Source of the DNA: Bradyrhizobium sp. 186
GTDB lineage: Bacteria; Pseudomonadota; Alphaproteobacteria; Rhizobiales; Xanthobacteraceae
NCBI RefSeq assembly: GCF_023101685.1
Contig: NZ_CP082164.1
Span: 3,906,001 to 3,970,000 of the forward strand
Length of the DNA stretch: 64,000 nucleotides
Direction: 5' to 3'
This document shows, piece by piece, positions 20,449-34,367 of this stretch. A program made the position numbers and the translations under genes. Under the pieces are notes generated by a model, which saw nothing but the letters and a program-made list of their open reading frames with translations, was not told the DNA's origin and made no database searches. Each line of letters opens with the position of its first letter. The stretch's first letter is position 1.

Positions 20449-21158
20449 GTGCCGCAATCATCGAAGTCGCCGATCTCGACGTCTATTACGGCACCAGCCA
20501 GATCCTGTTCGGCGTCGCCCTCGCCGTGCGGCAGGGCGAAACCATGGCGCTTCTCGGGCGCAACGGCGCTGGCAAGTCCACCACCATGAAGGCGATCATG
20601 GGACTGGCACCGCCACGGCGCGGCAAGGTCAGCCTGCGCGGTGCTGTGATCTCCGGCCTCAAGCCGCATGCGATCGCGCGCGCCGGCCTCGGCTTCGTGC
20701 CGGAGGACCGCCAGATCTTTCCGGAGCACACGGTCGAGGACAATCTCGTCATCGGCAGGAAGCGCGGGCCCGACGGCCAGGACGAATGGCCGATCAAGCG
20801 CATCTACGACGTCTTCCCGCTGCTTGAGCCCTTGCGCCATCGCATTGCGGGCCGCCTCTCGGGCGGCGAGCAGCAGATGCTCGCGATCGCGCGCACGCTG
20901 ATGGGCAATCCGGCGCTGCTCCTGCTGGACGAGCCGAGCGAGGGGCTCGCGCCGATCATCGTTCAGCGGATCGGCGAACTTCTGCGGCAGCTGCGCAGCA
21001 TCGGATCGACCGTGCTGATTGCCGAGCAGAACATGCATTTCTGCCTGGGCCTTGCGAGCCACGCCACGGTGATCGACAAGGGGCAGATCGTCTATGCCGC
21101 CGGGATCGATGAGCTGAAGGCCAACGACGCGATCCGCCGCCGTTATCTGGCGCTGTAG
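20445..21158 (+). CDS. branched-chain-type ABC transporter ATP-binding protein (LivF-like)
   Basis: 237-residue second ATPase of the importer. Walker A GRNGAGKSTTMKAIMG, signature RLSGGEQQMLAIARTL, Walker B LLLDEPSEGLAP and switch His region LIAEQNMHFCLG (His replaced by Gln after Glu, as is usual in LivF). Its GLGFVPEDRQIFPEHTVEDNL block is characteristic of LivF. Last gene of the five-gene cluster, coupled to livG by a 4-bp overlap. Confidence 0.9.
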   Translation: MSAAIIEVADLDVYYGTSQILFGVALAVRQGETMALLGRNGAGKSTTMKAIMGLAPPRRGKVSLRGAVISGLKPHAIARAGLGFVPEDRQIFPEHTVEDNLVIGRKRGPDGQDEWPIKRIYDVFPLLEPLRHRIAGRLSGGEQQMLAIARTLMGNPALLLLDEPSEGLAPIIVQRIGELLRQLRSIGSTVLIAEQNMHFCLGLASHATVIDKGQIVYAAGIDELKANDAIRRRYLAL

Positions 21159-21326
21159 CCGGAGCTCCGGGCCGCCAAAGGCGGTCAAAAGAAGAAAACT
21201 ATTGCCTCGGATCGCCCCGGCGGAAGGAGTTTCCCCTCCAGGGCGAGAAAAAGCCAATCGCTTCCATTGCCGTTTGGGGCCGAAACGACGACATTTCGGT
21301 CACAGATTGATGGATTGGCTACGCAT

Positions 21327-21545
21327 ATGGAACGCACTGGATTTGAGCCCTTCGGCGAGCGCCTGGTGTCCGCGACGGACACCCAGCCGCAGTCGCGCGC
21401 GTCAAAACTCCTGCTGCGGGCCGGCACCGGCCTGTTCTGGTCGCTGGTGGCGGGGATCGTGCTGGCGCGTGCGGCCTTCTTCGAGCCCGGCGTCTATGAC
21501 GGCTTCAGCCGCGTGGCCTCGCTCGCAAAGAGCCTGATCTTCTAA
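21327..21545 (+). CDS. small single-pass membrane protein, unknown function
   Basis: 72 residues from ATG at 21327 (92 if the in-frame 21267 start is used). The N-terminal half is polar (ERTGFEPFGERLVSATDT). One membrane helix is clear (LFWSLVAGIVLARAAFF, residues about 38-54), and there is a short C-terminal tail ending SLAKSLIF. No recognisable domain. It is a lone gene between the ABC importer and the YeiH-type transporter; composition is like its neighbours. Confidence 0.55.
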   Translation: MERTGFEPFGERLVSATDTQPQSRASKLLLRAGTGLFWSLVAGIVLARAAFFEPGVYDGFSRVASLAKSLIF

Positions 21546-21653
21546 GCCCGATCTCGGCCTGAGGACAGAACTTCCCTCGGCCCTGATATGTCGAAAACTT
21601 ATTCCCCAAACGAGCGAGCCTGCGTATAAATCCTTCTCCTCCGGGAGAGATTT

Positions 21654-22712
21654 GTGTCGCAGAATCAAGCATCCAGTTCGGCCGACGCCAAGCCGACCAC
21701 CGCCGCAAGCCGCATTGCCGCGCTGATTCCGGGCATTCTCCTCTGCATCGCCGTAGCCGGCGTCTCGGCCCTGCTCGAGCGGGCGGAGCTCGGCGTGTTC
21801 GAGCATCCCTATGTCGAGGCGCTGGTGATGGCGATCCTGCTCGGCATGGCCCTGCGCAGCTTCTGGAAGCCCGCGCCGCGCTGGCAGTCCGGCATCGCCT
21901 TCAGCGCCAAGCAGCTGCTCGAAGTCGCTGTCATGCTGCTCGGCGCCTCCATCAGCTTTGCGGCGATCGCCGCCTCAGGCGTTGCGCTGCTCGCCTCCAT
22001 CGCAGCGGTCGTCATGGTCGCGCTCTGCGTTTCATTTGGGCTGAGCCGGATGCTCGGCCTGTCGACGCGGCTGTCGATCCTGATCGCCTGCGGCAACTCT
22101 ATCTGCGGCAATTCGGCGATCGCGGCGGTGGCGCCGATCATCGGTGCGAACAACGACGAGATCGCATCCTCGATCTCCTTCACCGCGATCCTCGGCGTCA
22201 TGATGGTGCTGGGGCTGCCGCTGCTGATTCCGCTGCTGCAACTGTCCGCCACGCAATACGGCATCCTCGCAGGCCTCACCGTCTACGCGGTCCCGCAAGT
22301 GCTAGCCGCAACGGTGCCGGCGGGGCTCGTCAGCACGCAGATCGGCACGCTGGTCAAGCTGATGCGCGTGCTCATGCTCGGGCCCGTCGTCGTCGGCCTC
22401 TCGCTGGTCGCCTCGCGCTGGCAAAGCGGCGCGAAGAAGGCCAATGTCGGCTTCTTCCGCCTGGTGCCCTGGTTCATCCTGGGCTTCCTCGTGCTTGCGA
22501 CATTGCGCTCGCTCGAGATTGTGCCTGCCACGGTGATCGGACCCGTGACGAAGATCACGAGTTTCCTCACGGTGGTGTCGATGGCCGCGCTAGGCTTAGG
22601 TGTCGACGTGCGCGTGCTCGCCAATGTCGGCGGCCGGGTGACGGCCGCGGTGACACTGTCGCTGATGCTGCTGCTCGGGATCAGCATCGCGTTGGTGCAC
22701 TGGTTCAAGTGA
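21654..22712 (+). CDS. YeiH/SuyZ-family putative sulfate exporter (UPF0324, PF03601-type)
   Basis: 352-residue inner-membrane protein with about ten hydrophobic segments. It matches the YeiH family: LLGMALRSFWKP, AKQLLEVAVMLLGASISF, LIACGNSICGNSAIAAVAPIIGA and VSMAALGLGVDVRVLANVGGR. The GTG start at 21654 has GGGAGA 6 nt upstream. Family members such as SuyZ are proposed to export sulfate released during organosulfonate breakdown. That role is inferred but notable, because the gene is convergent with an SsuABC/TauABC-type importer and an AprA-like redox cluster. Confidence 0.82.
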   Translation: MSQNQASSSADAKPTTAASRIAALIPGILLCIAVAGVSALLERAELGVFEHPYVEALVMAILLGMALRSFWKPAPRWQSGIAFSAKQLLEVAVMLLGASISFAAIAASGVALLASIAAVVMVALCVSFGLSRMLGLSTRLSILIACGNSICGNSAIAAVAPIIGANNDEIASSISFTAILGVMMVLGLPLLIPLLQLSATQYGILAGLTVYAVPQVLAATVPAGLVSTQIGTLVKLMRVLMLGPVVVGLSLVASRWQSGAKKANVGFFRLVPWFILGFLVLATLRSLEIVPATVIGPVTKITSFLTVVSMAALGLGVDVRVLANVGGRVTAAVTLSLMLLLGISIALVHWFK

Positions 22713-22726
22713 GGGGCGGACAGTGC

Positions 22727-22881
22727 ACCCTCTCCCGTTGTGGCCCCTTGTGGGAGAGGGTGGCTTCGCGATAAGCGAAGCCGGGTGAGGGGTTCTCTCC
22801 GCGGATGATCTGTTGCAGTGAACGTGCGGAGAGGACCCCTCATTCGGCGCTTCGCGCCTTCTCCCACAAGGGGAGAAGGAA
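22727..22881. repeat. intergenic palindromic repeat, family 1 copy 2
   Basis: Diverged copy of the element at 804-940. Left arm contains CTCTCCCGTTGTGGCCCCTTG and GGGAGAGGGTGGCTTCGCG; right arm contains CCCCTCATTCGGCGCTTCGC and CTTCTCCCACAAGGGGAGAAGG. It lies between the two convergent genes and may act as a bidirectional terminator. Confidence 0.75.
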
Positions 22882-22908
22882 AAGCACCGCGCAAGCTCGA
22901 GAGAATCG

Positions 22909-23781
22909 TTAAATCACATCCGCCAGCGAGTGCCCATGCAGCTCGATGTTCAATCCCTGCATGCCGAGATCGGTGATCTCGCCGCCCATCGCCTTGATGC
23001 TTTCCTCGCGGATCAAAGACATCAATCCACGGCGCAGCGCCAAAAACTCCGACGACATCATCATCGATTGCTGCCGCGGCCGCTCCAGCGGGATCGGGAT
23101 TTCGGCCTTGATCGAGCCGGGGCGCGCGGTCATGCAGTAGACGCGGTCGGAGAGGAAAATCGCCTCGTCGATGTCGTGGGTGACGAACAGCACCGAGATT
23201 TTTAGCCGCTGCCACATGTTGGTGAGGATCTGCTGCATGATGACACGGGTTTGCGCGTCCAGCGCGCCGAAGGGCTCGTCGAGCAGCAGCACCTTCGGCC
23301 CGGTGGCGAGTGCACGGACGATGCCGACGCGCTGCTTCATGCCGCCGGAGAGCTTTTCCGGATAATGCTTCTCGAAGGCGTCCAGCCCGGCCAGCCCAAG
23401 CAGCGTGCGTGCGGCGCGTTCGCGCTGTGAGCGCGGCATGCCGCGCATCTTCAGGCCGAACTCGACATTCTCCCGCACCGTCTTCCAGGGAAACAGTGAA
23501 TATTGCTGGAACACCATGCCGCGCTCGGCGCTCGGCCCATTGACCTTCTCGCCGTCGACGGTGACCACGCCGGTGGTCGGTTTGAGGAAGCCCGCGACGG
23601 CATTAAGCAGCGTCGATTTCCCGCAGCCGGAGGGGCCGACGATCGAGACGAACTCGCCCGGCTTCACGTGGATCTGCGTATCGGTGACGGCCTGAACCGG
23701 TCCCTCAATGCTCTCATAGCTGAGCGAGAAATTCCTGACCTCGATATGGCCCTGCGGTGCTTTGGTCAGGATCTCTTTCAT
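22909..23781 (-). CDS. ABC transporter ATP-binding protein, nitrate/sulfonate/taurine type
   Basis: 290 residues. Walker [19 protein letters not shown]-loop GMVFQQYSLFPWKTVRENV, signature KLSGGMKQRVGIVRAL, Walker B VLLLDEPFGALDA and switch FVTHDIDEAIFLSDRV are all intact. About 40 residues extend beyond the core domain. ATG at 23781 (ATGA overlap with the permease stop) was chosen over a longer in-frame opening at 24189. Last gene of the SBP-permease-ATPase operon; SsuB/TauB/NrtD-like. Confidence 0.9.
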   Translation of the reverse strand: MKEILTKAPQGHIEVRNFSLSYESIEGPVQAVTDTQIHVKPGEFVSIVGPSGCGKSTLLNAVAGFLKPTTGVVTVDGEKVNGPSAERGMVFQQYSLFPWKTVRENVEFGLKMRGMPRSQRERAARTLLGLAGLDAFEKHYPEKLSGGMKQRVGIVRALATGPKVLLLDEPFGALDAQTRVIMQQILTNMWQRLKISVLFVTHDIDEAIFLSDRVYCMTARPGSIKAEIPIPLERPRQQSMMMSSEFLALRRGLMSLIREESIKAMGGEITDLGMQGLNIELHGHSLADVI

Positions 23782-24680
23782 TTTTGTCCCCACGGCATCA
23801 CCAGTTGTCCGGCGCCCCGGATCAGCAGGCTCGATCCAAGACCGAGCACGCCGATCGCGATCATGCCGAGCGCGATATCGGCATACTGGACCAGCGAATA
23901 GGCCTCCCAGGTGAAATAGCCGATGCCGTATTGGCCCGAGATCATCTCGGCCGCGATCAGCGACACCCAGGCGACGCCCATGCCGACGGTGAGGCCCGTG
24001 AAAATGTGCGGCAGCGAGGCCGGAAAATACACCTCGCGGAAGATCGAGCGTTCGCGCGCGCCGAGACATTGCGCGGCGCGCACCAGCACGGGATCGACCA
24101 GTGACATGCCATGCAGCGTATTGATCAGGATCGGGAAGAACGAGCCGAGGAAGGTGATGAAGACGATGCTCTGCTCGTTGGTGGGCCACAGCATGATTGC
24201 CATCGGCACCCAGGCGATCGCCGGAATCGGCCGCAGCACCTCCGCCACCGGGAAGATGATCTCATGGACAAGCTTGAAGCGGCCCATGATCAGGCCGAGC
24301 GGCACGCCGACGATTGCGGCAAGCGAGAAGCCGAAGAAGATGCGCCGGCAGCTCAGCAGGATGTGCATCAGGAAATGGGGATCGTGGATCGCCTTGGTGA
24401 AGCTCGCATAGACCGCGAGCGGCGAGGGCACGTTGGTGAAACGCACGAAGAATACGACGCGATAGGTCGTGAGCAGGTGCCACACCAGCAGGAAGGCGAG
24501 TAGCGAGATGATGCCGATCGCGGTCGCGCGCAGCCCGCCGCGGTTGAGCCGGTACCAGCGCAGCGCGAGCGTGCCGAAGGAGGCCGGCGTCGCGGGCGGT
24601 GCGGCGGGCGCGGGATCCGCCTCCGCGGTTACTGCTGGCATGCTGTCCTCGCGATGTCTGAGGATGGCGGGACTGCTCAC
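23778..24680 (-). CDS. ABC transporter permease, nitrate/sulfonate/taurine type
   Basis: 300-residue SsuC/TauC-like permease with about six membrane segments. The cytoplasmic ATPase-docking loop is visible around AAQCLGARERSIFREVYFPASLPHIFTGL (EAA motif). The N-terminal ~35 residues are rich in Ala/Pro. The GTG start overlaps the binding-protein stop (GTGA); an internal ATG at 24641 is possible. Translationally coupled on both sides in the SBP-permease-ATPase operon. Confidence 0.88.
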   Translation of the reverse strand: MSSPAILRHREDSMPAVTAEADPAPAAPPATPASFGTLALRWYRLNRGGLRATAIGIISLLAFLLVWHLLTTYRVVFFVRFTNVPSPLAVYASFTKAIHDPHFLMHILLSCRRIFFGFSLAAIVGVPLGLIMGRFKLVHEIIFPVAEVLRPIPAIAWVPMAIMLWPTNEQSIVFITFLGSFFPILINTLHGMSLVDPVLVRAAQCLGARERSIFREVYFPASLPHIFTGLTVGMGVAWVSLIAAEMISGQYGIGYFTWEAYSLVQYADIALGMIAIGVLGLGSSLLIRGAGQLVMPWGQK

Positions 24681-26098
24681 GTCTTGCCTCCGCTGACCGC
24701 CGCCTTCACCGCGTCATCGAAGCCGAGCACCTTGCCGCTGATCTTGGCCGCATAGGCTTCGGCGTCCTTCTTCAGGAGAAATGGCGCGACGTCGCCATTG
24801 CCGACCGCAAAGAAGGCCTGGTCGGCAAACAGCTTGATGCCGCGCGTGGTGTCGAAGACGTAGGCGACGTTGATCTTCTTGCCCTTGGCCTTGAAGTCGG
24901 CATAGGCGCCGAGCGTGCAGCTCGCCGACGAGAAGGGCAGGATACCGGCCTCGTCGACCCAGACCTCACCCGCCTTGCGCGGATCGGTGATCGGCTTCTT
25001 GCAGAAAGAATCTTCGCCTGTGATTTCGTAGTTCTTGGTGCTCGCAAGCTGCGCGTCATAGTCGAGCTTCATCTCGGCATAGGCCTTGCGGATGTAGGAA
25101 TCGTCGACCCATTTCTTCGGGTCGAACTCCTTCATGCGGCCGAGGCTTTGCAACACCTTGACGTCGGTCGTGGCTGCATCGATCAGCGCCGGCTTGATCG
25201 TGGGATCGGTGGTCATGTTGCCGCTGGGGCCGAGGAAGATGTAGACGACCTCCTTGTTGATGCCGGTCCATTCCTGAATCTTTTCCGCAGCGAGCTTGGG
25301 ATCGTCGCGCAGCCACTGATTGGCGGCGGTGACCGCCTTCAGGTAGGCGACGACGACTTCAGGATATTTCTCCGCGAAATCGGTGCGGACCACGATGCCG
25401 TGGAAGGTCGGCAAATTGGTCTCCACGCCGTCAAAGATCTTGCGCGCGAATCCGCGGAACGGCAGCAGTTCGGCGAACGGGACGAAGTCGGCGTGCGCGT
25501 CGATCTTTTTCTCCTGGAGATTGGTCGAGCCGACTTCAGGGCTCTGGCTGACGAGCTGGAAGAAATCGGACGCGTAGCCGCGATCCTGCATCGCCTTCAG
25601 CACCATGCCGTGCGCGGCGGAGCCGAAGGGCACGCTGACCAGCTTGCCCTTGAGATCGGCGAGATCGTAATAGGGCGAGTCCTTGTGGACGACGATGCCA
25701 TTGCCTGAGCCGGAGAGGCTGTAGGCCGCGATGCCGATCAGCCGGCTCTTGCTTTCAGGATTGGTCTCGAAGGTGAAGCCGTTCACGATCAGCGGATAGT
25801 CGCCCATCATGCCGATCTGGAGCTTGTTCGCCATCATCGCATTGGTGACGGGCGGACCGGACGTGAAATTCTGCCACTCCAGCTCGAACTTGATGTTGGC
25901 GTATTTGCCGTCCTTCGGCAGGTATTTTTCGAGGAGATGCAATTGCCGGATGACGACGCCGGCGGTCACCGTGTTGGTCGTGGTGTCCTGCGTCCCGATG
26001 CCGAGCGTGACAGTTTCCGCCGAAGCCGGCTGCGCGAGGAGAAGCGCCAGCGACGTCACCGACATCGCGATCGAAAGCGTGGGAAGATGGCGGACCAT
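24677..26098 (-). CDS. ABC transporter substrate-binding protein with NosL-like C-terminal domain
   Basis: 473 residues. Signal peptide MVRHLPTLSIAMSVTSLALLLAQPASA. The next ~330 residues are an SsuA/TauA/NrtA-like type II binding protein (VIRQLHLLEKYLP, NKLQIGMMGDYPLIVNG, GKLVSVPFGSAAHGMVLKAM). After it, a ~110-residue extension contains DQAFFAVG, VAPFLLKKDAEAYAA and GKVLGFDDAV, which resembles the C-terminal half of NosL-family copper-binding lipoproteins. It also has two Cys (EDSFCKKP, SSASCTLG). SsuA proteins are near 320 residues, so this is a domain addition. ATG at 26098 has AGGATGAG upstream; starts at 26104, 26110 and 26227 are alternatives. A CAACTAATCG motif lies 87 bp upstream. 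Confidence 0.85.
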   Translation of the reverse strand: MVRHLPTLSIAMSVTSLALLLAQPASAETVTLGIGTQDTTTNTVTAGVVIRQLHLLEKYLPKDGKYANIKFELEWQNFTSGPPVTNAMMANKLQIGMMGDYPLIVNGFTFETNPESKSRLIGIAAYSLSGSGNGIVVHKDSPYYDLADLKGKLVSVPFGSAAHGMVLKAMQDRGYASDFFQLVSQSPEVGSTNLQEKKIDAHADFVPFAELLPFRGFARKIFDGVETNLPTFHGIVVRTDFAEKYPEVVVAYLKAVTAANQWLRDDPKLAAEKIQEWTGINKEVVYIFLGPSGNMTTDPTIKPALIDAATTDVKVLQSLGRMKEFDPKKWVDDSYIRKAYAEMKLDYDAQLASTKNYEITGEDSFCKKPITDPRKAGEVWVDEAGILPFSSASCTLGAYADFKAKGKKINVAYVFDTTRGIKLFADQAFFAVGNGDVAPFLLKKDAEAYAAKISGKVLGFDDAVKAAVSGGKT

Positions 26099-26184
26099 TC
26101 TCATCCTCATTCGGTTGGATGTGCTGTGGTTGCCATGATTGGGTGAGGGCGCGGACAGGGCAAATCCGGAATTACTGCCGCAGT

Positions 26185-26194
26185 CGATTAGTTG
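26185..26194 (-). promoter_or_regulatory. shared motif, site D (CAACTAATCG)
   Basis: On the minus strand this reads CAACTAATCG, 87 bp upstream of the binding-protein gene start at 26098. Near-identical motifs occur at 27695-27704, 27779-27788 and 28665-28674, each in front of a different gene of the same functional cluster. Confidence 0.5.
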
Positions 26195-26263
26195 CCGGGA
26201 AAAGCCGATTGCATACTCCTTGGGCAATCCTGCACTTTAAAGCCGCTTGCCTGTGCATCGGTC

Positions 26264-27040
26264 CTAGTCGCCCGCCTGTCCACGCATCTCCTCGAGCACG
26301 TCGGGTCGGCAGACCACGATCTGGGAGCGTCTGGTCAGGACGATTCCCTTCTCCTGCATGCGCTTCAGGCTGATTGTGACCCACTGCCTGGTGGCGCCGA
26401 CCATGTGGGCGATGTCGGCATGGGTGAAGGCGGCGGCGATCACCCGGCCGTCGGCATCCTCGACCCCGTAGAGGTCGACGAGATGCAGCAGCAGGTGCGC
26501 AAGGCGCTGTGTGATCGAGCGCGTTCCCAGCATCTGGGCCAGCGCCGAGTAGCACTTGCCCTTGAAGGTCAGGCCCTCGATCAGGCCGATCGCGAGATTC
26601 GGGATCTCCACGGCGAGCGTGCGCAGTTCTTTTCCGGGCAGGTGCACGACACTGCAATTGCTGGATGCAACACCGGACCATTGATGCACGGTGCCTTCGA
26701 ACACTTCGGGCCCGCCGACGAAGTTGCCGACATGCCAATAGGCCAGCGTGATCTCGCGCCCCAAAGGCGAAGTGTAGAACACGCGGATGCGGCCGCTCTC
26801 GATCAGCCAGATGCCGTCATGCTTGCCGCCCTGGCTGAACAGCGTCTGGCCGCGGTTGAGCACTTTTCGGCGGCCCTGCTTCAGCACCAGTCCCCGCTCG
26901 TGCTGGCTAAGCTTGTCCATCAGCGGCGGCGGTCCGCCGATCCACTGCTGGTTCTCGGTGAGCAGCAGCGAGGAGCCGCCGGCAGGCCGGACTGCTGGGG
27001 AAACGGTCCCGCGAACCGCATTGGCCGCCTGCAACATCAT
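26264..27040 (-). CDS. Crp/Fnr-family transcriptional regulator
   Basis: 258 residues. The cyclic-nucleotide-binding-type beta barrel spans about residues 50-165 (TLFSQGGKHDGIWLIESGRIRVFYTSPLGREITLAYW). The dimer helix follows, and the C-terminal winged HTH contains FTHADIAHMVGATRQWVTISLKRMQEKGIV. There is no N-terminal four-Cys motif, so it is not an oxygen-sensing [4Fe-4S] Fnr. GGAGGCGG precedes the ATG. It is directly upstream of the binding-protein gene on the same strand (165-bp gap) and next to the redox genes, so it is the best candidate regulator of this cluster. Confidence 0.88.
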   Translation of the reverse strand: MMLQAANAVRGTVSPAVRPAGGSSLLLTENQQWIGGPPPLMDKLSQHERGLVLKQGRRKVLNRGQTLFSQGGKHDGIWLIESGRIRVFYTSPLGREITLAYWHVGNFVGGPEVFEGTVHQWSGVASSNCSVVHLPGKELRTLAVEIPNLAIGLIEGLTFKGKCYSALAQMLGTRSITQRLAHLLLHLVDLYGVEDADGRVIAAAFTHADIAHMVGATRQWVTISLKRMQEKGIVLTRRSQIVVCRPDVLEEMRGQAGD

Positions 27041-27049
27041 CCGCCTCCG

Positions 27050-27066
27050 GAACGTTTAAATCGTTC
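27050..27066. promoter_or_regulatory. short inverted repeat upstream of the Crp/Fnr gene
   Basis: GAACG (27050-27054), a 7-nt AT-rich spacer, then CGTTC (27062-27066), about 10 bp before the regulator's start codon. It could be an autoregulatory site or simply a small hairpin in the leader. Confidence 0.35.
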
Positions 27067-27113
27067 TAAAGAAGAGCAATGTCCGTGCCAGATGGGAAGG
27101 CGCCAACCTTCTG

Positions 27114-27215
27114 CGTCATTCCGGGATGCGCGCAAAGCGCGCAGGGTCGGAATCCATAACCACGAGCGGGGGGTTATGGATTCCGGGCTCGCCCTTCGGG
27201 CGCCCCGGAATGACG
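27114..27215. repeat. intergenic inverted repeat, family 2 copy 2
   Basis: CGTCATTCCGGG at the left and CCCCGGAATGACG at the right end, with internal hairpins (GCGCGCAAAGCGCGC; GGAATCCATAAC pairing with GTTATGGATTCC). Same family as 5394-5473. It lies in the 300-bp gap between the Crp/Fnr gene and the convergent end of the DUF971 gene; the rest of that gap holds a fragment of repeat family 3 and no ORF. Confidence 0.75.
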
Positions 27216-27293
27216 AGGTTTGATTGGCCAGAGTGCCCCTTCAACGTCGTTCTGCGCGCCGCTTTGCCAAATCCGACTTTCGCAACGGGCTCT

Positions 27294-27327
27294 TGGGGTA
27301 GTGGGTCCTGGCCTTCGCCAGGACGAC
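27294..27327. repeat. fragment of repeat family 3 (GGTCCTGGCCTTCGCCAGGA)
   Basis: The stretch includes GGTCCTGGCCTTCGCCAGGA followed by CGAC, matching the right arm of the element at 58573-58700 (GGTTCTGGCCTTCGCCAGGA then CGAC). Only one arm is present here. Confidence 0.6.
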
Positions 27328-27340
27328 ACCGAGTATGGGA

Positions 27341-27646
27341 CTAGCGCCCGGCCAAACTCAGCAGATACGGCTTCGGATAAATCCCCCGGTTATGCCCGTC
27401 CGAGAACGAGATGTTCAGGCCGTAGCCGAGATCACCGATCTCGGTGATGGCGATTCCCGGAAACCGCTCGGGGAAGCGGCCGTCGAAGCGGGCGCGGGTG
27501 CAGTGGGCGCATTTGCAGGAGAGGCGCAGCTGCTCGGCGGGCAGGCTGAGAGCGTCGTCCTGCGTCGTGCGCACGACGAGCGAGGCGAGATCGGCGCTGG
27601 CTTCGTAATCGGTCACGGTCGGCGTCACCAATGCGGTCATGGTCAT
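27341..27646 (-). CDS. DUF971 domain protein (GBBH-like N-terminal domain)
   Basis: 101 residues of the DUF971 family, the small domain also found at the N-terminus of gamma-butyrobetaine hydroxylase. Key residues: LSLPAEQLRLSCKCAHCTRARFDGRF, with a CxCxxC motif that could bind metal, and YGLNISFSDGHNRGIYPKPYL, the conserved W/F-DGH-x-IY block. The ATG at 27646 has GGAGGT 5 nt upstream. In many proteobacteria such proteins sit near Fe-S or Mrp-like factors; here the neighbours are Fe-S redox genes, so a role in cofactor supply is possible. Divergent from ferredoxin-NADP reductase. Confidence 0.75.
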   Translation of the reverse strand: MTMTALVTPTVTDYEASADLASLVVRTTQDDALSLPAEQLRLSCKCAHCTRARFDGRFPERFPGIAITEIGDLGYGLNISFSDGHNRGIYPKPYLLSLAGR

Positions 27647-27694
27647 GACGAACCTCCGACTCCTCTCTACGCCGGCTCGGTCGAGCGCGAATAG

Positions 27695-27704
27695 CAACTA
27701 ATTG
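27695..27704. promoter_or_regulatory. shared motif, site C (CAACTAATTG)
   Basis: CAACTAATTG, 49 bp upstream of the DUF971 start on the minus strand, in the divergent DUF971-fpr intergenic region. Read on the minus strand it is CAATTAGTTGCTAT, closely matching site B (CAACTAATTGCTAT). Confidence 0.5.
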
Positions 27705-27778
27705 CCGGAGCAGGCGTGCGGCGCGGCCGGCTGTGTGGGCGTCGTTGCCTTGGTATCGATCACCGCACGCGAAATGTG

Positions 27779-27788
27779 AAACTAATCG
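27779..27788 (+). promoter_or_regulatory. shared motif, site A (AAACTAATCG)
   Basis: AAACTAATCG followed by ACCGGGAA, 82 bp upstream of the fpr start. It shares CTAATCGAC with site D upstream of the binding-protein gene. Confidence 0.45.
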
Positions 27789-27869
27789 ACCGGGAATTTC
27801 AATTCGGCGTTGCCCGATTCCTCTGTCTCCGAAACCTTGCGCCCGATCGCGAGGATGGAGAGACGACGG

Positions 27870-28643
27870 ATGAGCGCATTTCAGAAGGAAACGGTTCTGT
27901 CGGTCAGGCATTGGACCGACTCGCTGTTCAGCTTTACCGCGACGCGCGATCCCGGCTTTCGCTTCCAGAACGGCCAGTTCGCCATGATCGGGCTGGAGGT
28001 CGAGGGCAAGCCCTTGATGCGGGCCTACAGCATGGCGAGCGCCAATCACGAGGAGGAGCTCGAGTTCTTCTCGATCAAGGTTCAGGATGGCCCGCTGACC
28101 TCGCGTCTCCAGAAGATAAGAGAGGGTGATATCATCCTTGTCGGCCGCAAGGCCACGGGCACGCTGATCACCGGCAATCTCATTCCCGGCAAGCGCTTAC
28201 TTCTGCTCTCGACCGGCACCGGGCTTGCGCCGTTCGCCAGCCTGATCAAGGATCCCGATGTCTACGAAAACTACGAGACGATCGTGCTCGCCCATGGCTG
28301 CCGCCAGGTCTCCGAGCTCGCCTATGGCGAGCAGCTTGTCGACGGTCTGCGCAATCACGAGTTCTTCGGGCCGCTGATCCGCGACAAGCTCGTCTATTAC
28401 CCGACCGTCACCCGCGAGCCGTTCCGGAACCGCGGTCGCATCAGCGATCTGATCGCCTCCAACCAGCTCTTTGACGACATCGGCCAGTCCGGCCTCGATA
28501 TCGAGACGGATCGCATCATGCTGTGCGGCAGCCCGGCGATGCTGGAGGAACTCCCCGCGATGTTTTCCGCGCACGGCTTTCTCGAGGGCAACCACAGCCA
28601 GCCCGGCCATTTCGTGATCGAAAAGGCCTTCGTCGAGCGGTGA
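27870..28643 (+). CDS. fpr: ferredoxin--NADP reductase
   Basis: 257 residues, the standard Fpr length. Transfers electrons between NADP(H) and ferredoxin/flavodoxin. The FAD motif RAYSMASANHEEELEFFSIKV is near residue 55, the NADP motif LLLSTGTGLAPFASLI near 115, and LCGSPAMLEE lies before the C-terminus, which ends KAFVER. ATG at 27870 was chosen (upstream GGAGAG) over 27855 and 27810. It lies 103 bp before the AprA-like gene and close to a small ferredoxin gene, so it likely exchanges electrons with that system. Confidence 0.92.
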   Translation: MSAFQKETVLSVRHWTDSLFSFTATRDPGFRFQNGQFAMIGLEVEGKPLMRAYSMASANHEEELEFFSIKVQDGPLTSRLQKIREGDIILVGRKATGTLITGNLIPGKRLLLLSTGTGLAPFASLIKDPDVYENYETIVLAHGCRQVSELAYGEQLVDGLRNHEFFGPLIRDKLVYYPTVTREPFRNRGRISDLIASNQLFDDIGQSGLDIETDRIMLCGSPAMLEELPAMFSAHGFLEGNHSQPGHFVIEKAFVER

Positions 28644-28664
28644 GGACAAATCGCTCTGCGGCGA

Positions 28665-28674
28665 CAACTAATTG
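28665..28674 (+). promoter_or_regulatory. shared motif, site B (CAACTAATTG)
   Basis: CAACTAATTG followed by CTATCGC, 73 bp upstream of the AprA-like start. It sits within an imperfect dyad from GCGA (28661) to TCGC (28681). A separate promoter here would mean fpr and the AprA-like gene can be expressed independently. Confidence 0.5.
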
Positions 28675-28746
28675 CTATCGCCGGGAAGCCTGCTGAACAA
28701 ATCTGCTGCAAAGGCACCGGACCTGCCGGCGAACCAGGAGCAAGCG

Positions 28747-30489
28747 ATGGCACTAGATCAGATCGTCGACGGACTTTCGGAGGTTTCCTGCGATGTGCTG
28801 GTCATCGGCGGCGGCACCGCTGGCCCGATGGCGGCGCTGAAGGCGAAGCTGAAGAACCCGAAGGCCAATGTCGTCCTGCTCGAAAAGGCCAACGTCAAGC
28901 GCTCCGGGGCGATCTCGATGGGCATGGACGGCCTGAACAACGCCGTCATCCCCGGTTACGCGACGCCGGAGCAGTACACCAAGGAAATCACCATCGCCAA
29001 TGACGGCATCGTCGACCAGAAGGCAGTCTATAAATACGCGCAGAACTGCTACAAGATCATCGAGGAGCTCGACAGCTTTGGGATCCGCTTCCTGAAGAAC
29101 GAGAACGGCGACTACGCCGTGAAGAAGGTGCATCATATCGGCACCTACGTCCTGCCGATGCCGAATGGCGAGACCGTGAAGAAGGCGCTGTACCGCCAGC
29201 TCCGCCGTGCCCGCATCCTGATCTCCAACCGCTACATGGCGACACGCTTGCTGAAATCGGGGGACGGCCGCATCGCCGGGGCGATCAGTGTCAACACGCG
29301 CACCGCCGAGATCCTGGTGATCAAGGCCAAGGCGGTGATCCTGTGCATGGGCGCCGCCGGCCGGCTCGGTCTGCCGACCTCCGGCTACATGTTCGGGACC
29401 TACGAGAACGCCGCCAATTCCGGCGACGGCTATGCCATGGCCTATCACGCCGGTGCCGCGCTCGCGAACCTCGAATGCTACCAGATCAACCCGCTGATCA
29501 AGGACTACAACGGCCCGGCCTGCGCCTATGTCGCCGGTCCCTTCGGCGCCTTCACCGCCAACAACGAAGGCTCGCGCTTCATCGAATGCGACTACTGGTC
29601 GGGCCAGATGATGCTGGAGTTCTACAACGAGCTGTTGTCGGGCAAGGGGCCGGTTTTCCTCCAGCTCAAGCATCTTCACCCGGACACCATCTCCGAGATC
29701 GAATCCACGCTGCACAAGGTGGAGCGGCCGACGCGCGGTCTGTTCCAGCAGGGGCGCGGGGTCGACTACCGCAGCGAGTCGATCGAGATGCATATCTCCG
29801 AGATCGGCTTCTGCTCCGGCCACAGCGCGTCCGGCGTGTTCGTCGATGACAATGCCCGCACCACCGTGCCCGGCCTCTATGCTGCCGGCGACATGGCGAG
29901 CGTGCCGCACAACTACATGCTCGGCGCCTTCACCAACGGCTCGGTTGCCGGCATCGACGCGATGGAATTCGCGGACAGCCATGACTTCGCGGAGTTCGAT
30001 GCAACAGAGGTTGCCAAGGAGCGTGACCGCGTGCTGGCGCCGACGAAGCGCGAGGACGGCATTCCGCCGAACCAGGTCGAATACAAGACCCGCCGCCTGG
30101 TGAACGACTATCTCCAGCCGCCAAAAGTCACGCGAAAATACGAGCTCGGCATGCGTCGCCTGGCCGAGGTGCGCGAGGACATGCAGGATCACATGATCGC
30201 CCGCAACGCGCACGAACTGCTCCGCGCTCTCGAAGTGCAGTCGATCATGGACTGCGCCGACATGGCGGCCCACGCCTCGCTGTACCGCGAGGAAAGCCGC
30301 TGGGGCCTCTATCACTGGCGCACGGATTTCCCGGAGAAGGACAACGAGAACTGGTTCTGCCACACGCTGCTGAGCAAGCAGGGCGGCAAGATGACCAGCG
30401 AGAAGCGCGCCGTGGAGCCCTATGTCGTCCCGATCGCCGACGACGAGAAGGATCTCTACGACAAGCAGCGCATCCGCGTCACCGCCTGA
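28747..30489 (+). CDS. AprA-like FAD-dependent flavoprotein (fumarate reductase/APS reductase alpha superfamily)
   Basis: 580 residues. N-terminal FAD site CDVLVIGGGTAGPMAALKAK with a glutamate after strand 2 (VVLLEKANVKRSGAISMG). Central block AKAVILCMGAAGRLGLPTSGYMFGTYENAANSGDGYAMAYHAGA. Then ISEIGFCSGHSASGVFVDD and TVPGLYAAGDMASVPHNYMLGAFTNGSVAG, where adenylylsulfate reductase alpha subunits have their substrate His and the LFAAGD segment. It belongs to the succinate dehydrogenase/fumarate reductase/AprA superfamily and is closer in layout to AprA. A two-cluster ferredoxin gene follows 34 bp later, as aprB accompanies aprA. AGGAG precedes the ATG at 28747. Not a canonical AprA: the cluster lacks sat and aprM. 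Confidence 0.8.
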   Translation: MALDQIVDGLSEVSCDVLVIGGGTAGPMAALKAKLKNPKANVVLLEKANVKRSGAISMGMDGLNNAVIPGYATPEQYTKEITIANDGIVDQKAVYKYAQNCYKIIEELDSFGIRFLKNENGDYAVKKVHHIGTYVLPMPNGETVKKALYRQLRRARILISNRYMATRLLKSGDGRIAGAISVNTRTAEILVIKAKAVILCMGAAGRLGLPTSGYMFGTYENAANSGDGYAMAYHAGAALANLECYQINPLIKDYNGPACAYVAGPFGAFTANNEGSRFIECDYWSGQMMLEFYNELLSGKGPVFLQLKHLHPDTISEIESTLHKVERPTRGLFQQGRGVDYRSESIEMHISEIGFCSGHSASGVFVDDNARTTVPGLYAAGDMASVPHNYMLGAFTNGSVAGIDAMEFADSHDFAEFDATEVAKERDRVLAPTKREDGIPPNQVEYKTRRLVNDYLQPPKVTRKYELGMRRLAEVREDMQDHMIARNAHELLRALEVQSIMDCADMAAHASLYREESRWGLYHWRTDFPEKDNENWFCHTLLSKQGGKMTSEKRAVEPYVVPIADDEKDLYDKQRIRVTA

Positions 30490-30523
30490 TCCACCGCCAA
30501 CTGCAAGCAACAGGAGACCAACG

Positions 30524-30757
30524 ATGCCTCTCGCATCCTATCAGACATCGGTTCCGGTGGTCGTCGACGACGCCAAATGCATCGCGGACAAGGGCTGCAC
30601 CGTGTGCGTCGACGTCTGCCCGCTCGACGTGCTCCGCATCAGCGACATGACCGGCAAGGCCTACATGGCCTATGACGAATGCTGGTACTGCATGCCCTGC
30701 GAGGCGGACTGCCCGACCGGCGCCGTCACCGTCAACATTCCCTATCTCCTGAGGTAG
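30524..30757 (+). CDS. small two-[4Fe-4S] ferredoxin, AprB-like
   Basis: 77 residues. First cluster motif CIADKGCTVCVDVCP (C-x5-C-x2-C-x3-CP), second CWYCMPCEADCP (C-x2-C-x2-C-x3-CP), with the linking segment DMTGKAYMAYDE resembling the TGKA-x-N-x-E segment of AprB. It is half the length of sulfate-reducer AprB and lacks its C-terminal tail. ATG at 30524 has AGGAGA upstream. It sits between the AprA-like flavoprotein and the HEAT-repeat gene and is presumably the flavoprotein's electron partner, linked to NADPH through the nearby Fpr. Confidence 0.88.
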   Translation: MPLASYQTSVPVVVDDAKCIADKGCTVCVDVCPLDVLRISDMTGKAYMAYDECWYCMPCEADCPTGAVTVNIPYLLR

Positions 30758-30759
30758 TC

Positions 30760-31737
30760 ATGTCGAGCCCGTTCGAATCCTACGACGACCTCGAAGATGC
30801 GGACGAGCGGCTCCAGGCGGCCGATCCCGCCGAGCGCCGCGTCGCCATCATCGCACTCGGCCATTCCGGCGACTCAGCAGCCGTCCCGCATCTCGCCAAC
30901 ATGGTGGCTGATCCCGACGCTGGCGTGCGCCAGCAGGTCGCGATGGCGCTCGGCGAGTTCGACGGGCCGGAGGCCGCGAGCGCGCTGGTCAAGTTGCTGG
31001 TCGACCCCGAGAGGATCGTCGCGTCAGCCGCGGCCGACAGCATGGCGGAGTTCAAGGATCCCGCCTGCGCGGAAATCATCCTGCCGCTGGTCAAGCATGC
31101 CCACGCCTTCGTCCGCATGGGCGCGCTGCGCGCGCTGAAGGAGCTGCGCTGCAAGGACACGCTGAAGCCGGCGCTTGAAGCGCTCCAGGACACGGACGCC
31201 GCCGTGCGCGTGCAGGCGATCGGCGTGATCGGATTCCTGAAGCTCGAAGAATCCATCCCCGCGCTGACCGCGTTGATCAACGATCCCGACGCGCATGTGC
31301 GCCGTGCTGCGGTGAGCGCGTTGGCCTTCTCGCAGTTGAAGCCGGCGGCCGAGACGATCACCCGTGCGCTGAAGGATGCCGACTGGATGGTTCGCGAGAT
31401 GGCCGCGGAGACGCTGGGCCTCAACGTTAACGGCGCGCTTGCTGCCGACCAACTCGTCGGCTCGCTTGCCGACGAATTCTGGCAGGTGCGGCTGAAGGTG
31501 ATCCGCAGCCTTGGCAGGATGAAGATCGAGCGCGCGGTGCGCCCGATCGGCAACTGCATCAATCATGACCAGGCCAATCTGCGGAAGGAAGCCGCTGCGG
31601 CGCTCGGCGAGATTGCCCATCCCGACGGCGAGACATTCCTGGCTGTTATCGCCGACGACGCCGATCCCGACGTGCGCAAGAACGCACGTTGGGCACTCCA
31701 GCAGATCGCGGCGCGGAAGGCGCGGGCGGGGGCATAG
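30760..31737 (+). CDS. HEAT-repeat protein
   Basis: 325 residues made almost entirely of about ten ~31-residue HEAT/PBS-lyase-like repeats (examples: DPDAGVRQQVAMALGEF, DPDAHVRRAAVSALAFS, DPDVRKNARWALQQI). There is no catalytic motif or signal peptide, so it is a cytoplasmic solenoid scaffold or chaperone. ATG at 30760 lies 2 bp after the ferredoxin stop, showing a tight operon. E/Z-type HEAT proteins help attach or detach cofactors in other systems, so a role in assembling the flavoprotein-ferredoxin complex is a reasonable guess. Confidence 0.85.
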   Translation: MSSPFESYDDLEDADERLQAADPAERRVAIIALGHSGDSAAVPHLANMVADPDAGVRQQVAMALGEFDGPEAASALVKLLVDPERIVASAAADSMAEFKDPACAEIILPLVKHAHAFVRMGALRALKELRCKDTLKPALEALQDTDAAVRVQAIGVIGFLKLEESIPALTALINDPDAHVRRAAVSALAFSQLKPAAETITRALKDADWMVREMAAETLGLNVNGALAADQLVGSLADEFWQVRLKVIRSLGRMKIERAVRPIGNCINHDQANLRKEAAAALGEIAHPDGETFLAVIADDADPDVRKNARWALQQIAARKARAGA

Positions 31738-31850
31738 CCGAGGTCGCGCGGCCGCTCTGGACATCCCCTGCCAGACCTTTATTGGTCTTCGCCAACGTGA
31801 TTGGCCGCTGAGCGAACGCGGCCGATCCGAAAAAGAGCGAGGACACGGCC

Positions 31851-33023
31851 ATGACGACACTGACTGCTAAGGATCTTCTCCCCGAGGACGGAACGCGGGG
31901 AACGCTGGTCGGCCGCGTCTGGCTGCCGCAGGCGAATGGCCCGGCCGTGGTCGCGGTGCGTAGCGACGGGGTCTTCGATGTCACCGCAAAATTCCCGACC
32001 ATCAGCGCACTCTGCGAGGAAGACAATCCGGCCAAAGCGCTCGCCGCAACCAAGGGCGAGCGCATCGGCGATCTCGCCGCGATCGTGGCCAATACGGCGC
32101 CCGATCAGCGCGACCGCCAGAAGCCGTGGCTGCTTGCGCCGGTCGATCTCCAGACACTGAAGGCGGCCGGCGTCACCTTCGCCATCTCGATGCTGGAGCG
32201 CGTCATCGAGGAGCGAGCGAAGGGCAATCCGGCCTCGGCCGAAGCGATCCGCAAGGAAGTGACGCGGCTCATCGGCGATGATCTCTCCAAGCTCAAGCCG
32301 GGCTCGGACCAGGCGATGCATTTGAAGCAGGTGCTGATTGAGCAGAACGCCTGGAGCCAGTATCTCGAAGTCGGCATCGGCCCGGATGCCGAGGTCTTTA
32401 CCAAGGCACCGACATTGTCATCGGTCGGTACCGGCATGGATGCCGGGCTGCATCCGAAATCGACCTGGAACAACCCGGAACCGGAGCTGGTGCTGTTCGT
32501 CTCGAGCCGCGGCAAGATCGTCGGCGGCGCACTCGGCAATGACGTCAATCTGCGCGACTTCGAAGGGCGTTCGGCGCTGCTGCTGTCGAAGGCCAAGGAC
32601 AACAACGCCTCCTGCTCCATCGGCCCGTTGCTGCGCCTGTTCGACGACAGCTTCTCGCTCGACGACGCGCGGAAGCTGGATATCAGTCTGAACGTGAAGG
32701 GGGCGGACGGTTTTGTCCTCGACGGCCATTCCTCGATCAGCAAGATCAGCCGCGATCCCACCGATCTGGTTGAACAGACGATCGGGCCCGTGCATCAATA
32801 CCCCGATGGTTTCGTGCTGTTCCTCGGCACGATGTTCGCGCCGGTCAAGGATCGCGATGCGCCGGGGCAGGGGTTCACGCACAAGCGCGATGACATCGTC
32901 ACGATTGCAGCGCCGCAGCTCGGCAAGCTGGTCAACCGCATGCGCGGCAGCGACGAGTGCGAACCCTGGACCTTCGGCATCGGCGCGCTGATGAAGAATC
33001 TGGCGCAGCGGAAGCTGATCTAG
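31851..33023 (+). CDS. fumarylacetoacetate hydrolase (FAH)-family protein
   Basis: 390 residues with the FAH catalytic core in the C-terminal two thirds: EVGIGPDAEVFTKAPTLSSVGTG, WNNPEPELVLFVSSRGKIVGGALGNDVNLRDFEGRSALLLSKAKDNNASCSIGPLL (Glu/Asp metal ligands and the D-x-N-x-R-D segment) and GFVLFLGTMFAP. Members of this branch in sugar loci act on 2-keto-3-deoxy sugar acids, such as 2-keto-3-deoxy-arabinonate dehydratase or the GguC/AraD1 group. Given the sugar dehydrogenase and lactonase genes downstream, that role is more likely than fumarylacetoacetate cleavage. A 113-bp gap separates it from the HEAT gene. Confidence 0.78.
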   Translation: MTTLTAKDLLPEDGTRGTLVGRVWLPQANGPAVVAVRSDGVFDVTAKFPTISALCEEDNPAKALAATKGERIGDLAAIVANTAPDQRDRQKPWLLAPVDLQTLKAAGVTFAISMLERVIEERAKGNPASAEAIRKEVTRLIGDDLSKLKPGSDQAMHLKQVLIEQNAWSQYLEVGIGPDAEVFTKAPTLSSVGTGMDAGLHPKSTWNNPEPELVLFVSSRGKIVGGALGNDVNLRDFEGRSALLLSKAKDNNASCSIGPLLRLFDDSFSLDDARKLDISLNVKGADGFVLDGHSSISKISRDPTDLVEQTIGPVHQYPDGFVLFLGTMFAPVKDRDAPGQGFTHKRDDIVTIAAPQLGKLVNRMRGSDECEPWTFGIGALMKNLAQRKLI

Positions 33024-33067
33024 CCAGCTTCACTTCTCCTGACTTACGGCAGGGCGGTTGCACCGGA

Positions 33068-33152
33068 CGTCATGCCCGAGCTTGTCCCGGGCGTCCACGT
33101 TCTTCGTTCCGTGGGGTGAGGCGTGGATGGCCGGGACAAGCCCGGCCACGAC
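33068..33152. repeat. intergenic inverted repeat, family 4
   Basis: Left arm CGAGCTTGTCCCGGGCGTCC and right arm GGCCGGGACAAGCCCGGCCA are near-complementary. It lies in the 378-bp gap between the FAH gene and ytfQ; the remainder of that gap holds a hairpin GTCCGC-CTTT-GCGGAC (33243-33258), a candidate operator (33274-33292) and no credible ORF. Confidence 0.65.
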
Positions 33153-33273
33153 GGTGTGGTGGCGGAAGGCCCGAGCCGCACACATTCTTTCATCTTCGCG
33201 TTGCAACTGCGGAACAAAATCGCGATGGGTGTTCATAGGACTGTCCGCCTTTGCGGACCGCGCCTCTCGCAAA

Positions 33274-33292
33274 TAGTCAGATAATATGACTA
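33274..33292. promoter_or_regulatory. inverted repeat, candidate GntR-family operator
   Basis: TAGTCA (33274-33279), 7-nt AT-rich spacer, TGACTA (33287-33292); GACTAGTC (33288-33295) overlaps it. It is 110 bp upstream of ytfQ, first gene of an operon that includes a GntR/FCD regulator. Confidence 0.5.
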
Positions 33293-33401
33293 GTCGGAAC
33301 CCATCTTCCGTGAAATAGTGCCTCTCGCCGCCCTCAAGGGCGGTCTTCAGGTGCCATGTTACCAATCGGCGCCTGAGATAAACACTTGGGAGACACGCCT
33401 T

Positions 33402-34367
33402 ATGAACCTCAAAGCCCTTTTTGCGGCCAGCGCCACGGCCGCGTTGCTGCTCGCGCTTCCGGCCAGCGCCGGCCAGCTCACCATCGGCTTCTCGCAGATC
33501 GGATCGGAATCCGGCTGGCGCGCGGCCGAGACCTCGGTCTCCAAGCAGGAAGCCGCCAAGCGCCAGGTCAATCTCAAGATTGCCGACGCGCAGCAGAAGC
33601 AGGAGAACCAGATCAAGGCGATCCGCTCCTTCATCGCGCAAAACGTCGATGCCATCTTCCTCGCGCCCGTCGTTTCGACCGGCTGGGATTCGGTGCTGAA
33701 GGAAGCCAAGGAGGCCAAGATCCCGGTCGTGCTGCTCGACCGCGACATCGATCCCTCCGGCAAGGAGCTCTATCTCACCGCCGTGACCTCGGACAGCGTG
33801 CACGAAGGCGAAGTCGCCGGCGATTGGCTGGCGAAGACCGTCGGCGGCAAGGCCTGCAACGTCGTCGAATTGCAGGGCACCGTCGGCGCGAGCGTCGCCG
33901 CCAACCGCAAGAAGGGTTTTGACACTGCCATCGCCAAACATTCGAACCTGAAGGTCGTGCGCAGCCAGACCGGCGACTTCACCCGGGCCAAGGGCAAAGA
34001 GGTGATGGAGAGCTTCATCAAGGCGGAAGGCGGCGGCAAGTCGATCTGCGCGGTCTATGCGCACAATGACGACATGATGGTCGGCGCGATCCAGGCGATG
34101 AAGGAAGCCGGCCTCAAGCCGGGCAAGGAGATCCTCACCGTCTCGATCGACGCGGTCCCGGATATCTTCAAGGCGATGGTCGCCGGCGAAGCCAATGCTA
34201 CGGTCGAGCTGACGCCGAACATGGCAGGCCCCGCGCTCGATGCCATCGCGGCCTTCAAGGACAAGGGCGCCACTCCGCCAAAGTGGATCCAGACGGACTC
34301 GAAGCTCTTCACTGCCGCCGACGATCCGCAGAAGATTTACGACAGCAAGAAGGGCCTCGGTTACTGA
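33402..34367 (+). CDS. ytfQ: galactofuranose-type sugar ABC transporter binding protein
   Basis: 321-residue periplasmic binding protein with signal peptide MNLKALFAASATAALLLALPASA. It closely follows E. coli YtfQ across its length: LTIGFSQIGSESGWRAAETSV, QQKQENQIKAIRSFIAQ, VAPVVSTGW-type VDAIFLAPVVSTGWDSVLKEAK, NVVELQGTVGASVAANRKKGF and VYAHNDDMMVGAIQAMKEAGLKPG. The ytfR, ytfT and yjfF genes follow in the same order as in E. coli. ATG at 33402 starts the signal peptide. YtfQ binds galactofuranose and galactopyranose; this protein may serve galactose or arabinose given the downstream enzymes. Confidence 0.92.
   Translation: MNLKALFAASATAALLLALPASAGQLTIGFSQIGSESGWRAAETSVSKQEAAKRQVNLKIADAQQKQENQIKAIRSFIAQNVDAIFLAPVVSTGWDSVLKEAKEAKIPVVLLDRDIDPSGKELYLTAVTSDSVHEGEVAGDWLAKTVGGKACNVVELQGTVGASVAANRKKGFDTAIAKHSNLKVVRSQTGDFTRAKGKEVMESFIKAEGGGKSICAVYAHNDDMMVGAIQAMKEAGLKPGKEILTVSIDAVPDIFKAMVAGEANATVELTPNMAGPALDAIAAFKDKGATPPKWIQTDSKLFTAADDPQKIYDSKKGLGY

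Follow-up and report, generated by a model that had tools for sequence, protein, structure and literature searches.

Introduction

The flavoenzymes and importers closest to the system described here are known from sulfur metabolism. The adenylylsulfate (APS) reductase AprBA consists of a flavin adenine dinucleotide (FAD) subunit with an active-site His and Asn, and a beta subunit with two [4Fe-4S] clusters and a Trp. The 3'-phosphoadenylylsulfate (PAPS) reductase of Methanothermococcus (MtPAPSR, 8a8o) is, according to the available part of PMC10322725, an AprBA relative outside dissimilation, with an alpha subunit and a small ferredoxin-type beta subunit. In sulfonate use, import is followed by intracellular release of sulfite by SsuD/SsuE or TauD, as given in the accessible part of PMC6906117. 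Herein, a gene block from Bradyrhizobium sp. 186 is compared with these systems. It lies at positions 22909-31737 of a 64,000-nucleotide stretch of contig NZ_CP082164.1 (the window), in a genome of 10.77 Mb, and encodes an AprA-like flavoprotein, a 77-residue mini-ferredoxin, a HEAT-repeat protein, the ferredoxin-NADP+ reductase Fpr, a DUF971 protein, a Crp-type regulator and an ATP-binding cassette (ABC) importer with its substrate-binding protein (SBP).

The block is like AprBA in the fold of the FAD subunit, in the active-site His and Asn, and in a two-[4Fe-4S] subunit with a Trp. Unlike AprBA, it has a short beta-type subunit and no sopT-type sat; an importer, HEAT, DUF971, Fpr and the ferredoxin FdxA accompany the flavoprotein instead. 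MtPAPSR is the closest structure, but it groups with AprA. The ATPase and permease belong to the families of TauABC and SsuABC. The proposed logic is that of desulfonation, import and then intracellular sulfite release; unlike the oxygenases SsuD/SsuE and TauD, the enzyme would be an AprA-superfamily flavoenzyme that is linked to ferredoxins.

The protein families are already in the databases, one of them misleadingly named, and the system, its regulon and its link to FdxA are absent from the literature found. Searches aimed at the module or its chemistry found no paper on it in an open-access full-text library, which misses most subscription papers. The available parts of PMC8557817, PMC12581299, PMC10256816 and PMC7661421 do not describe the gene set.

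Results

The flavoprotein family is sister to AprA and MtPAPSR

The flavoprotein (28747..30489, + strand) scored 1059.3 bits against NF006131 (PRK08275), exceeding the cut-off of 587, and is a member of this family. Against TIGR02061 (AprA) it scored 156.4 bits, under the cut-off of 641.75. The fusion form of the flavoprotein with the HEAT protein is modeled by NF010374 (PRK13800), of which the window flavoprotein covers positions 9-566 and the window HEAT protein 604-896. The closest solved relative, by sequence and by fold, is the PAPS reductase alpha subunit in the PDB entry 8a8o. A maximum-likelihood tree of 53 rows was built with a midpoint root and contains some long branches. The 38 family rows form one group (92/91) next to AprA and MtPAPSR (100/100), and a 100/100 split sets both apart from the rows for succinate dehydrogenase, fumarate reductase and aspartate oxidase. 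The flavoprotein is thus placed outside the ordinary fumarate reductases and aspartate oxidases. The name "fumarate reductase/succinate dehydrogenase" carried by NF006131 and NF010374 is contradicted, as judged from the tree and the residues. Thousands of deposited sequences bear this name (clusters of 1244, 1320 and 2794 among the named matches), yet the family groups with the APS reductases and has a different gene set.

The AprA-type active-site His is referred to here as His398, and the Arg of the HGANR-type loop is presumably catalytic in fumarate reductase, succinate dehydrogenase and aspartate oxidase. Like AprA and MtPAPSR, the family has the His398-type His, Asn74 and Lys267-Asp268 and lacks the fumarate reductase catalytic Arg. 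The His was compared with four AprA rows and MtPAPSR, this stretch of the A. fulgidus chain being outside the comparison. The HGANR-type loop Arg is a gap in 7/7 family rows and Arg in 5/5 rows of the fumarate reductase, succinate dehydrogenase or NadB type. The active-site positions H350 and N55 are invariant in 72/72 rows; the His398-type His is residue 384 of the 605-residue ORF in the window.

The substrate residues are different. Tyr95, Trp234 and Arg265 of AprA are presumed to bind APS, Arg265 probably by its sulfo group. In 7/7 family rows Tyr95 is replaced by Glu, Gln145 by His, Trp234 by Tyr and Arg265 by Leu; over the larger set, E71, H121, Y210 and L241 are each found in 72/72 rows. 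The position of AprA Tyr235 is also Glu. Gln145 is an APS-binding residue of AprA in the available part of PMC10322725, where Lys120, Arg121 and Ser122 of MtPAPSR serve the 3'-phosphate of PAPS; these three are Val, His and His in 7/7 family rows. A His-His pair (residues 154 and 155 of the 605-residue ORF), Leu241, Cys250, Cys347 and His350 are invariant in 72/72 rows, and the His-His motif and an extra Cys distinguish the family from AprBA. The preliminary description of this DNA called the protein AprA-like. This holds for its place in the tree; the APS and PAPS residues are gone, so the term is not to be read as APS chemistry. On the sequence evidence, the flavoprotein is a member of the AprBA superfamily for a substrate other than APS or PAPS. 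Its structure model (mean predicted local distance difference test score, pLDDT, 71) is too shallow for pocket detail.

Redox and import genes form one conserved system

Gene content was counted by tblastn with score limits in 74 module loci, picked for diversity, and in 19 control regions, which are arbitrary places in 18 sampled genomes with unmatched gene content. L177 and L181 were removed before counting as the same records as L123 and L126. L129 and L211 are seemingly one genome, so the 74 probably include one pair counted twice, and several loci (e.g. L109, L179 and L188) are cut by contig ends, genes there being counted as lacking. The flavoprotein, mini-ferredoxin, HEAT protein, SBP, permease and ATPase were found together in 64 of the 74 loci and in 0/19 controls. 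Individually, the flavoprotein was found in 74 loci, the mini-ferredoxin and the HEAT protein in 73 each, the permease and the ATPase in 67 each, the SBP in 65 and DUF971 in 63; lower numbers were obtained for a GntR/UTRA-type regulator (45), FdxA (34), the Crp-type regulator (29) and Fpr (24). Each counted module gene was absent from the 19 controls at the score limits used; with a looser search, a single ATPase of 32% identity appeared in one of them. These data indicate one conserved redox-plus-import system, as had been proposed from the window, and the same neighbourhood was found in other genomes across the alpha-, beta- and gamma-proteobacteria.

Of 149 relatives, 57 have a flavoprotein above the NF006131 cut-off. 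The same holds for 21 of 398 genomes sampled across the phylum, 26 of 297 in the window's own order, 18 of 300 in the order of genome G463 and 15 of 293 in the order of genome G206, these samples overlapping one another. At least 515 loci of the named collection encode a relative, and 80 of these loci were kept. The sporadic presence fits a module that moves.

The proposed electron chain includes FdxA

The mini-ferredoxin (30524..30757, + strand) resembles AprB without its C-terminal part. Its match to TIGR02060 (AprB), of 32 bits, is confined to positions 2-65 of 132, the C-terminal tail being absent, and 3gyx_B was matched with an E value of 1.5e-7. Its eight Cys and Trp54 are kept in 56/56 rows. 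Fpr (27870..28643, + strand) carries PF00175 and PF00970 and scored 134 bits against NF008178 (cut-off 390). FdxA was missed by the first neighbour clustering, which had a floor of 130 residues; the clustering was repeated for short open reading frames (ORFs). FdxA stands inside or adjoining the module in 34/74 loci against 0/19 controls. Loci that lack cytochrome c, e.g. L105, L145 and L146, also have FdxA and Fpr standing with the module.

A relay from NADPH through Fpr and ferredoxin to the flavoprotein had been suggested before. To Fpr and the mini-ferredoxin in that chain FdxA is to be added, by its presence at these loci and by its promoter palindrome (below). A well-supported path, drawn from the gene sets and the AprBA and MtPAPSR structures, would run from NADPH through Fpr, FdxA and the AprB-like ferredoxin to FAD. 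The tie of Fpr and FdxA to the flavoprotein, by gene sets and by the palindrome, argues for NADPH-driven reduction. The HEAT-repeat protein (30757..31737, + strand) shows PF13646 in five stretches, and the DUF971 (GBBH-like_N) protein (27341..27646, - strand) carries PF06155.

A TauA-like substrate-binding protein with an unchanging pocket

The importer consists of an SsuB/TauB-type ATPase (22909..23781, PF00005), an SsuC/TauC-type permease (23778..24680, PF00528) and the SBP (24677..26110), all on the - strand. In a profile search of the SBP, TauA was the closest (82 bits), followed by SsuA, and these two were also the best PDB matches and the top folds for its model (mean pLDDT 77, too shallow for pocket detail). 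The earlier assignment to the Ssu/Tau type is therefore borne out by sequence and by fold. The SBP stays below the NCBIfam cut-offs (TIGR01728, 121.4 of 163.5; TIGR01729, 67.5 of 304).

In the available part of PMC6906117, TauA holds the sulfonate of taurine through Gln30 and the backbone of Gly61, Gly79 and Thr132, whereas Glu106, Thr132 and Asp205 bind the amine. This numbering was mapped by hand onto the printed alignment. The Gly61 position is Gly in 66/66 rows, and the Gly79 position is Gly in 42 and Ala in 24. The amine-binding Glu106 and Asp205 are replaced by Asn176 and His276 in 66/66 rows, and the Thr132 side chain is lost (Ala in the window). Q80, N176, H245 and H276 are all found in 66/66 rows, the pairing of the invariant Q80 with TauA Gln30 being made by spacing and not by alignment. 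A pocket this constant speaks for a single ligand in all copies, which would have a sulfonate-like head and no taurine-like amine.

Unlike TauA and SsuA, the SBP carries a NosL-like domain near its C-terminus, at about residues 419-508 of the 516-residue ORF; PF05573 gave 24.0 bits, equal to its cut-off. No invariant Cys or Met was found in this domain among 29 rows, and the Cu(I) ligands of NosL are not kept.

A shared palindrome links the module to fdxA

The Crp-type regulator gene (26264..27040, - strand; PF13545, PF00027) lies between the SBP and DUF971 genes. The palindrome GCAACTAATTGC, a putative site of this regulator, is located at 27694..27705 between the divergent DUF971 and Fpr genes. 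A near copy, ACAACTAATTGC, lies at 28664..28675 upstream of the flavoprotein gene, and a weak copy with 2 mismatches at 26184..26195 (- strand) upstream of the SBP gene. Among the 28 loci that have a Crp gene, 24 carry the palindrome GCAAYTARTTGC, with at most 1 mismatch, near a core gene start, against 9 of 46 others (p 2.7e-8), and 0 sites were found in 378 kb of controls. The 28 Crp loci here and the 29 above come from two different searches. Genome-wide, RCAAYTARTTGY occurs at four sites, two in the module, one before fdxA and one near a MarR-type gene. In same-genus genomes, fdxA stands apart from the module. About 140 bp before it, the palindrome was found with 0-1 mismatch in 13/13 such genomes with the module and in 3/13 without it (p 1.1e-4), the 26 genomes being hand-picked, mutually related and not fully independent. 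The Crp-type protein probably binds the palindrome, judging from these positions.

The palindrome also precedes an amidase-type gene in three genomes (L147:2459-7200, L126:4026-5537 and L250:1501-3014), two assigned by NCBIfam and one by sight. In G031 (L147), allophanate-hydrolase-like and SsuA-type genes follow. These genes hint at a possible supply of the pathway from an amide precursor. The fourth RCAAYTARTTGY site (L242:1501-1512) lies near both the MarR-type gene and another ORF.

Sulfur context

A YeiH/Cons_hypoth698 gene for a putative sulfate (sulfite) exporter (21654..22712, + strand) is convergent with the importer operon, as described before. It meets PF03601 (233.4 bits, cut-off 24.5) and is under the cut-off of TIGR00698 (147.7 against 232.6). 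YeiH homologues recur beside or inside the cluster: a six-seed panel found them in 13/74 loci, in 12 of these 13 no more than 140 bp from a core gene, and seedless clustering found them in 11/74 loci and 0/19 controls. A homologue lies between DUF971 and Fpr in three loci of Bradyrhizobium and one of Afipia; the one that was scanned is below the NCBIfam cut-off. On a quick tree of 72 rows, the YeiH label requires 8 changes, which indicates that the link with the module was gained or lost repeatedly.

The genome encodes PF01507 (CysH/CysD-type) and sulfite-reductase-domain proteins elsewhere. The absence of sat from the window, reported before, extends to the genome: no sopT-type sat was found genome-wide (0/1 genome). 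With these assimilation genes and no sopT-type sat, the module is not needed for sulfate assimilation. The genes aprM and qmo were not among the window genes in family scans, no genome-wide search for them being made. The Cys and Met content is 5.2% for the flavoprotein, 2.4% for the SBP and 1.6% (low) for the HEAT protein, and 0.6% for eight neighbouring SsuA-like SBPs. Scavenging under sulfate starvation, as a role for the module, is weakened by these values. Overall, the link of the module to sulfur is fairly supported.

Discussion

Tentatively, and a little short of an even chance, we favour a regulated uptake and reduction system for a small R-SO3-type compound, with sulfite released. The fold and pocket of the TauA-like SBP suggest that it and the ABC importer would take up such a compound. 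Electrons would pass from NADPH to Fpr, to FdxA (here encoded elsewhere behind the same palindrome), to the AprB-like ferredoxin and to the FAD of the flavoprotein. Attack of the flavin N5 on sulfur has been proposed for APS and PAPS reductases. Similarly, N5 of the reduced FAD would attack the sulfonyl sulfur to give sulfite and R-XH, where X is most plausibly N, S or O. The HEAT and DUF971 proteins may serve the assembly or scaffolding of the flavoprotein complex, for HEAT as the fusion model suggests. The sulfite would be assimilated, or exported via YeiH or TSUP where present, and the module would be turned on by the dedicated Crp-type regulator, or by a GntR/UTRA-type one in other lineages.

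It is also possible, though on balance doubtful, that the family is a separate AprBA-superfamily branch for the oxygen-free reductive cleavage of imported non-nucleotide R-X-SO3 compounds (sulfamate, thiosulfonate, sulfate ester or sulfonate), driven by NADPH, Fpr and FdxA, assisted by HEAT and horizontally spread in about 5-9% of genomes in the four broader proteobacterial samples. Acesulfame or sulfamate, prompted by the amidase genes, are candidate substrates only. There is a fair chance that the reaction is new among the AprBA-superfamily redox enzymes. If the favoured reading holds, many proteobacteria would release sulfite from organosulfur or sulfamate-type compounds independently of oxygen, and the sulfur cycle would gain a step.

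Several observations weigh against reductive sulfite release. The Arg265 position, presumed to hold the sulfo group in AprA, is Leu throughout the family, and the flavoprotein model has pLDDT <50 around the active site (194-216, 235-248 and 340-351). At least one sulfonate-linked neighbour (YeiH, TSUP exporters, TauD, luciferase-like (LLM) monooxygenases or second SsuA-like SBPs) was found in 26/74 loci against 0/19 controls (p 0.001), a comparison that is partly circular and leans in favour because the panel seeds came mostly from module loci; 48/74 loci are without a listed sulfur partner. The Cys and Met content gives no clear sulfate-starvation signature. Palindrome counts are ordinary, so that only the placing is telling: at up to 2 mismatches the window has 6 matches against 2.67 expected, with as many in 6/100 shuffles; the genome has 4 sites against 4 for the reversed control pattern, and twelve other genomes have 14 strict sites against 8. 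The remodelled pocket without Arg265, the amidase-type genes behind the palindrome and the unclear Cys/Met signature would all suit a non-sulfur substrate, a carboxylate or amide that is bound by the TauA-fold SBP and receives hydride from FAD, with the sulfur neighbours being incidental. This is unlikely, if worth keeping in view: YeiH directly adjoins the module in several lineages, the nearest relatives of the SBP are sulfonate binders, and the catalytic Arg of the fumarate reductase type is absent.

The direction of electron flow and the copper-related neighbours must also be considered. Fpr is able to run either way, and SCO1 (18/74 loci), PCuAC (11/74) and cytochrome c (16/74) adjoin the module without being explained by reductive sulfite release. 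The flavoprotein could instead dehydrogenate an imported organosulfur compound and pass electrons via the ferredoxins and Fpr to NADP+, or to cytochrome c where present, and sulfur exporters would suit the release of excess sulfur. We regard such an oxidative role as rather improbable; FdxA and Fpr accompany the module also where cytochrome c is missing, and the AprB-like ferredoxin suits reduction at least equally. SCO1 and PCuAC, together with the NosL-like domain of the SBP at the PF05573 cut-off, could also point to a periplasmic role in copper or metal handling. This is very improbable, and copper was dropped as the main explanation: no Cys or Met ligand is conserved in that domain, and SCO1 and PCuAC were not found in 56/74 loci. 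A role in sulfate assimilation as an APS or PAPS reductase is scarcely credible, despite MtPAPSR being the closest solved relative, and was ruled out on residues. All seven substrate residues of AprA and MtPAPSR listed above are replaced, the genome has its own assimilation genes and no sopT-type sat, and an importer would be senseless for APS.

Gene order, plasmid copies and variant loci

In the window, every gene named in the preliminary description was found by ORFs and family scans as one contiguous block, with order and strands as stated. Likely true starts were taken from motifs common to relatives: 23781 for the ATPase (motif MKEILTK), 26110 for the SBP, 27646 for DUF971, 27870 for Fpr and 28747 for the flavoprotein. 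The gap between the Crp and DUF971 genes contains inverted repeats at 27153-27180 (10-bp arms) and 27305-27324 (9-bp arms), which resemble a repetitive extragenic palindromic (REP)-type element without an Rfam match; Rfam gave 0 matches in 20000-34000.

Plasmid records matching at E 1e-100 numbered 50. A compact set of regulator, flavoprotein, ferredoxin, importer, HEAT and DUF971 is found on annotated plasmids of Acinetobacter, Paraburkholderia and Methylobacterium. On Cupriavidus and Aquabacterium plasmids the set is listed without DUF971, and on a Methylocystis plasmid with neither DUF971 nor the regulator. On pMLa of Mesorhizobium japonicum, the group comprises no more than DUF971, flavoprotein, ferredoxin and HEAT. 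There, an IS110 transposase gene lies between HEAT and a short Crp/Fnr gene (L152:13212-14852), and the nearest listed ABC importer is about 7 kb upstream.

The module occurs twice on a single contig of the same-genus genome G031 (L147 and L148). In the Hyphomicrobium copy (L113:7369-12717), HEAT is directly 3' of the flavoprotein, the mini-ferredoxin was not found, and an LLM monooxygenase and an SsuA-like transporter adjoin. In many alphaproteobacterial copies, e.g. of Chelativorans, Labrenzia and Roseobacter, the importer and the regulator are separated by SCO1, PCu(A)C and a cytochrome c (L116:18629-20460 etc.), as they are in some genomes of the order of G206. A membrane-type protein of about 230 residues is encoded between permease and ATPase in 19/74 loci (e.g. 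L116:17070-17762, L128, L131, L186, L204 and L207). That of L116 gave no NCBIfam and no meaningful Pfam match, and it is perhaps an extra importer subunit.

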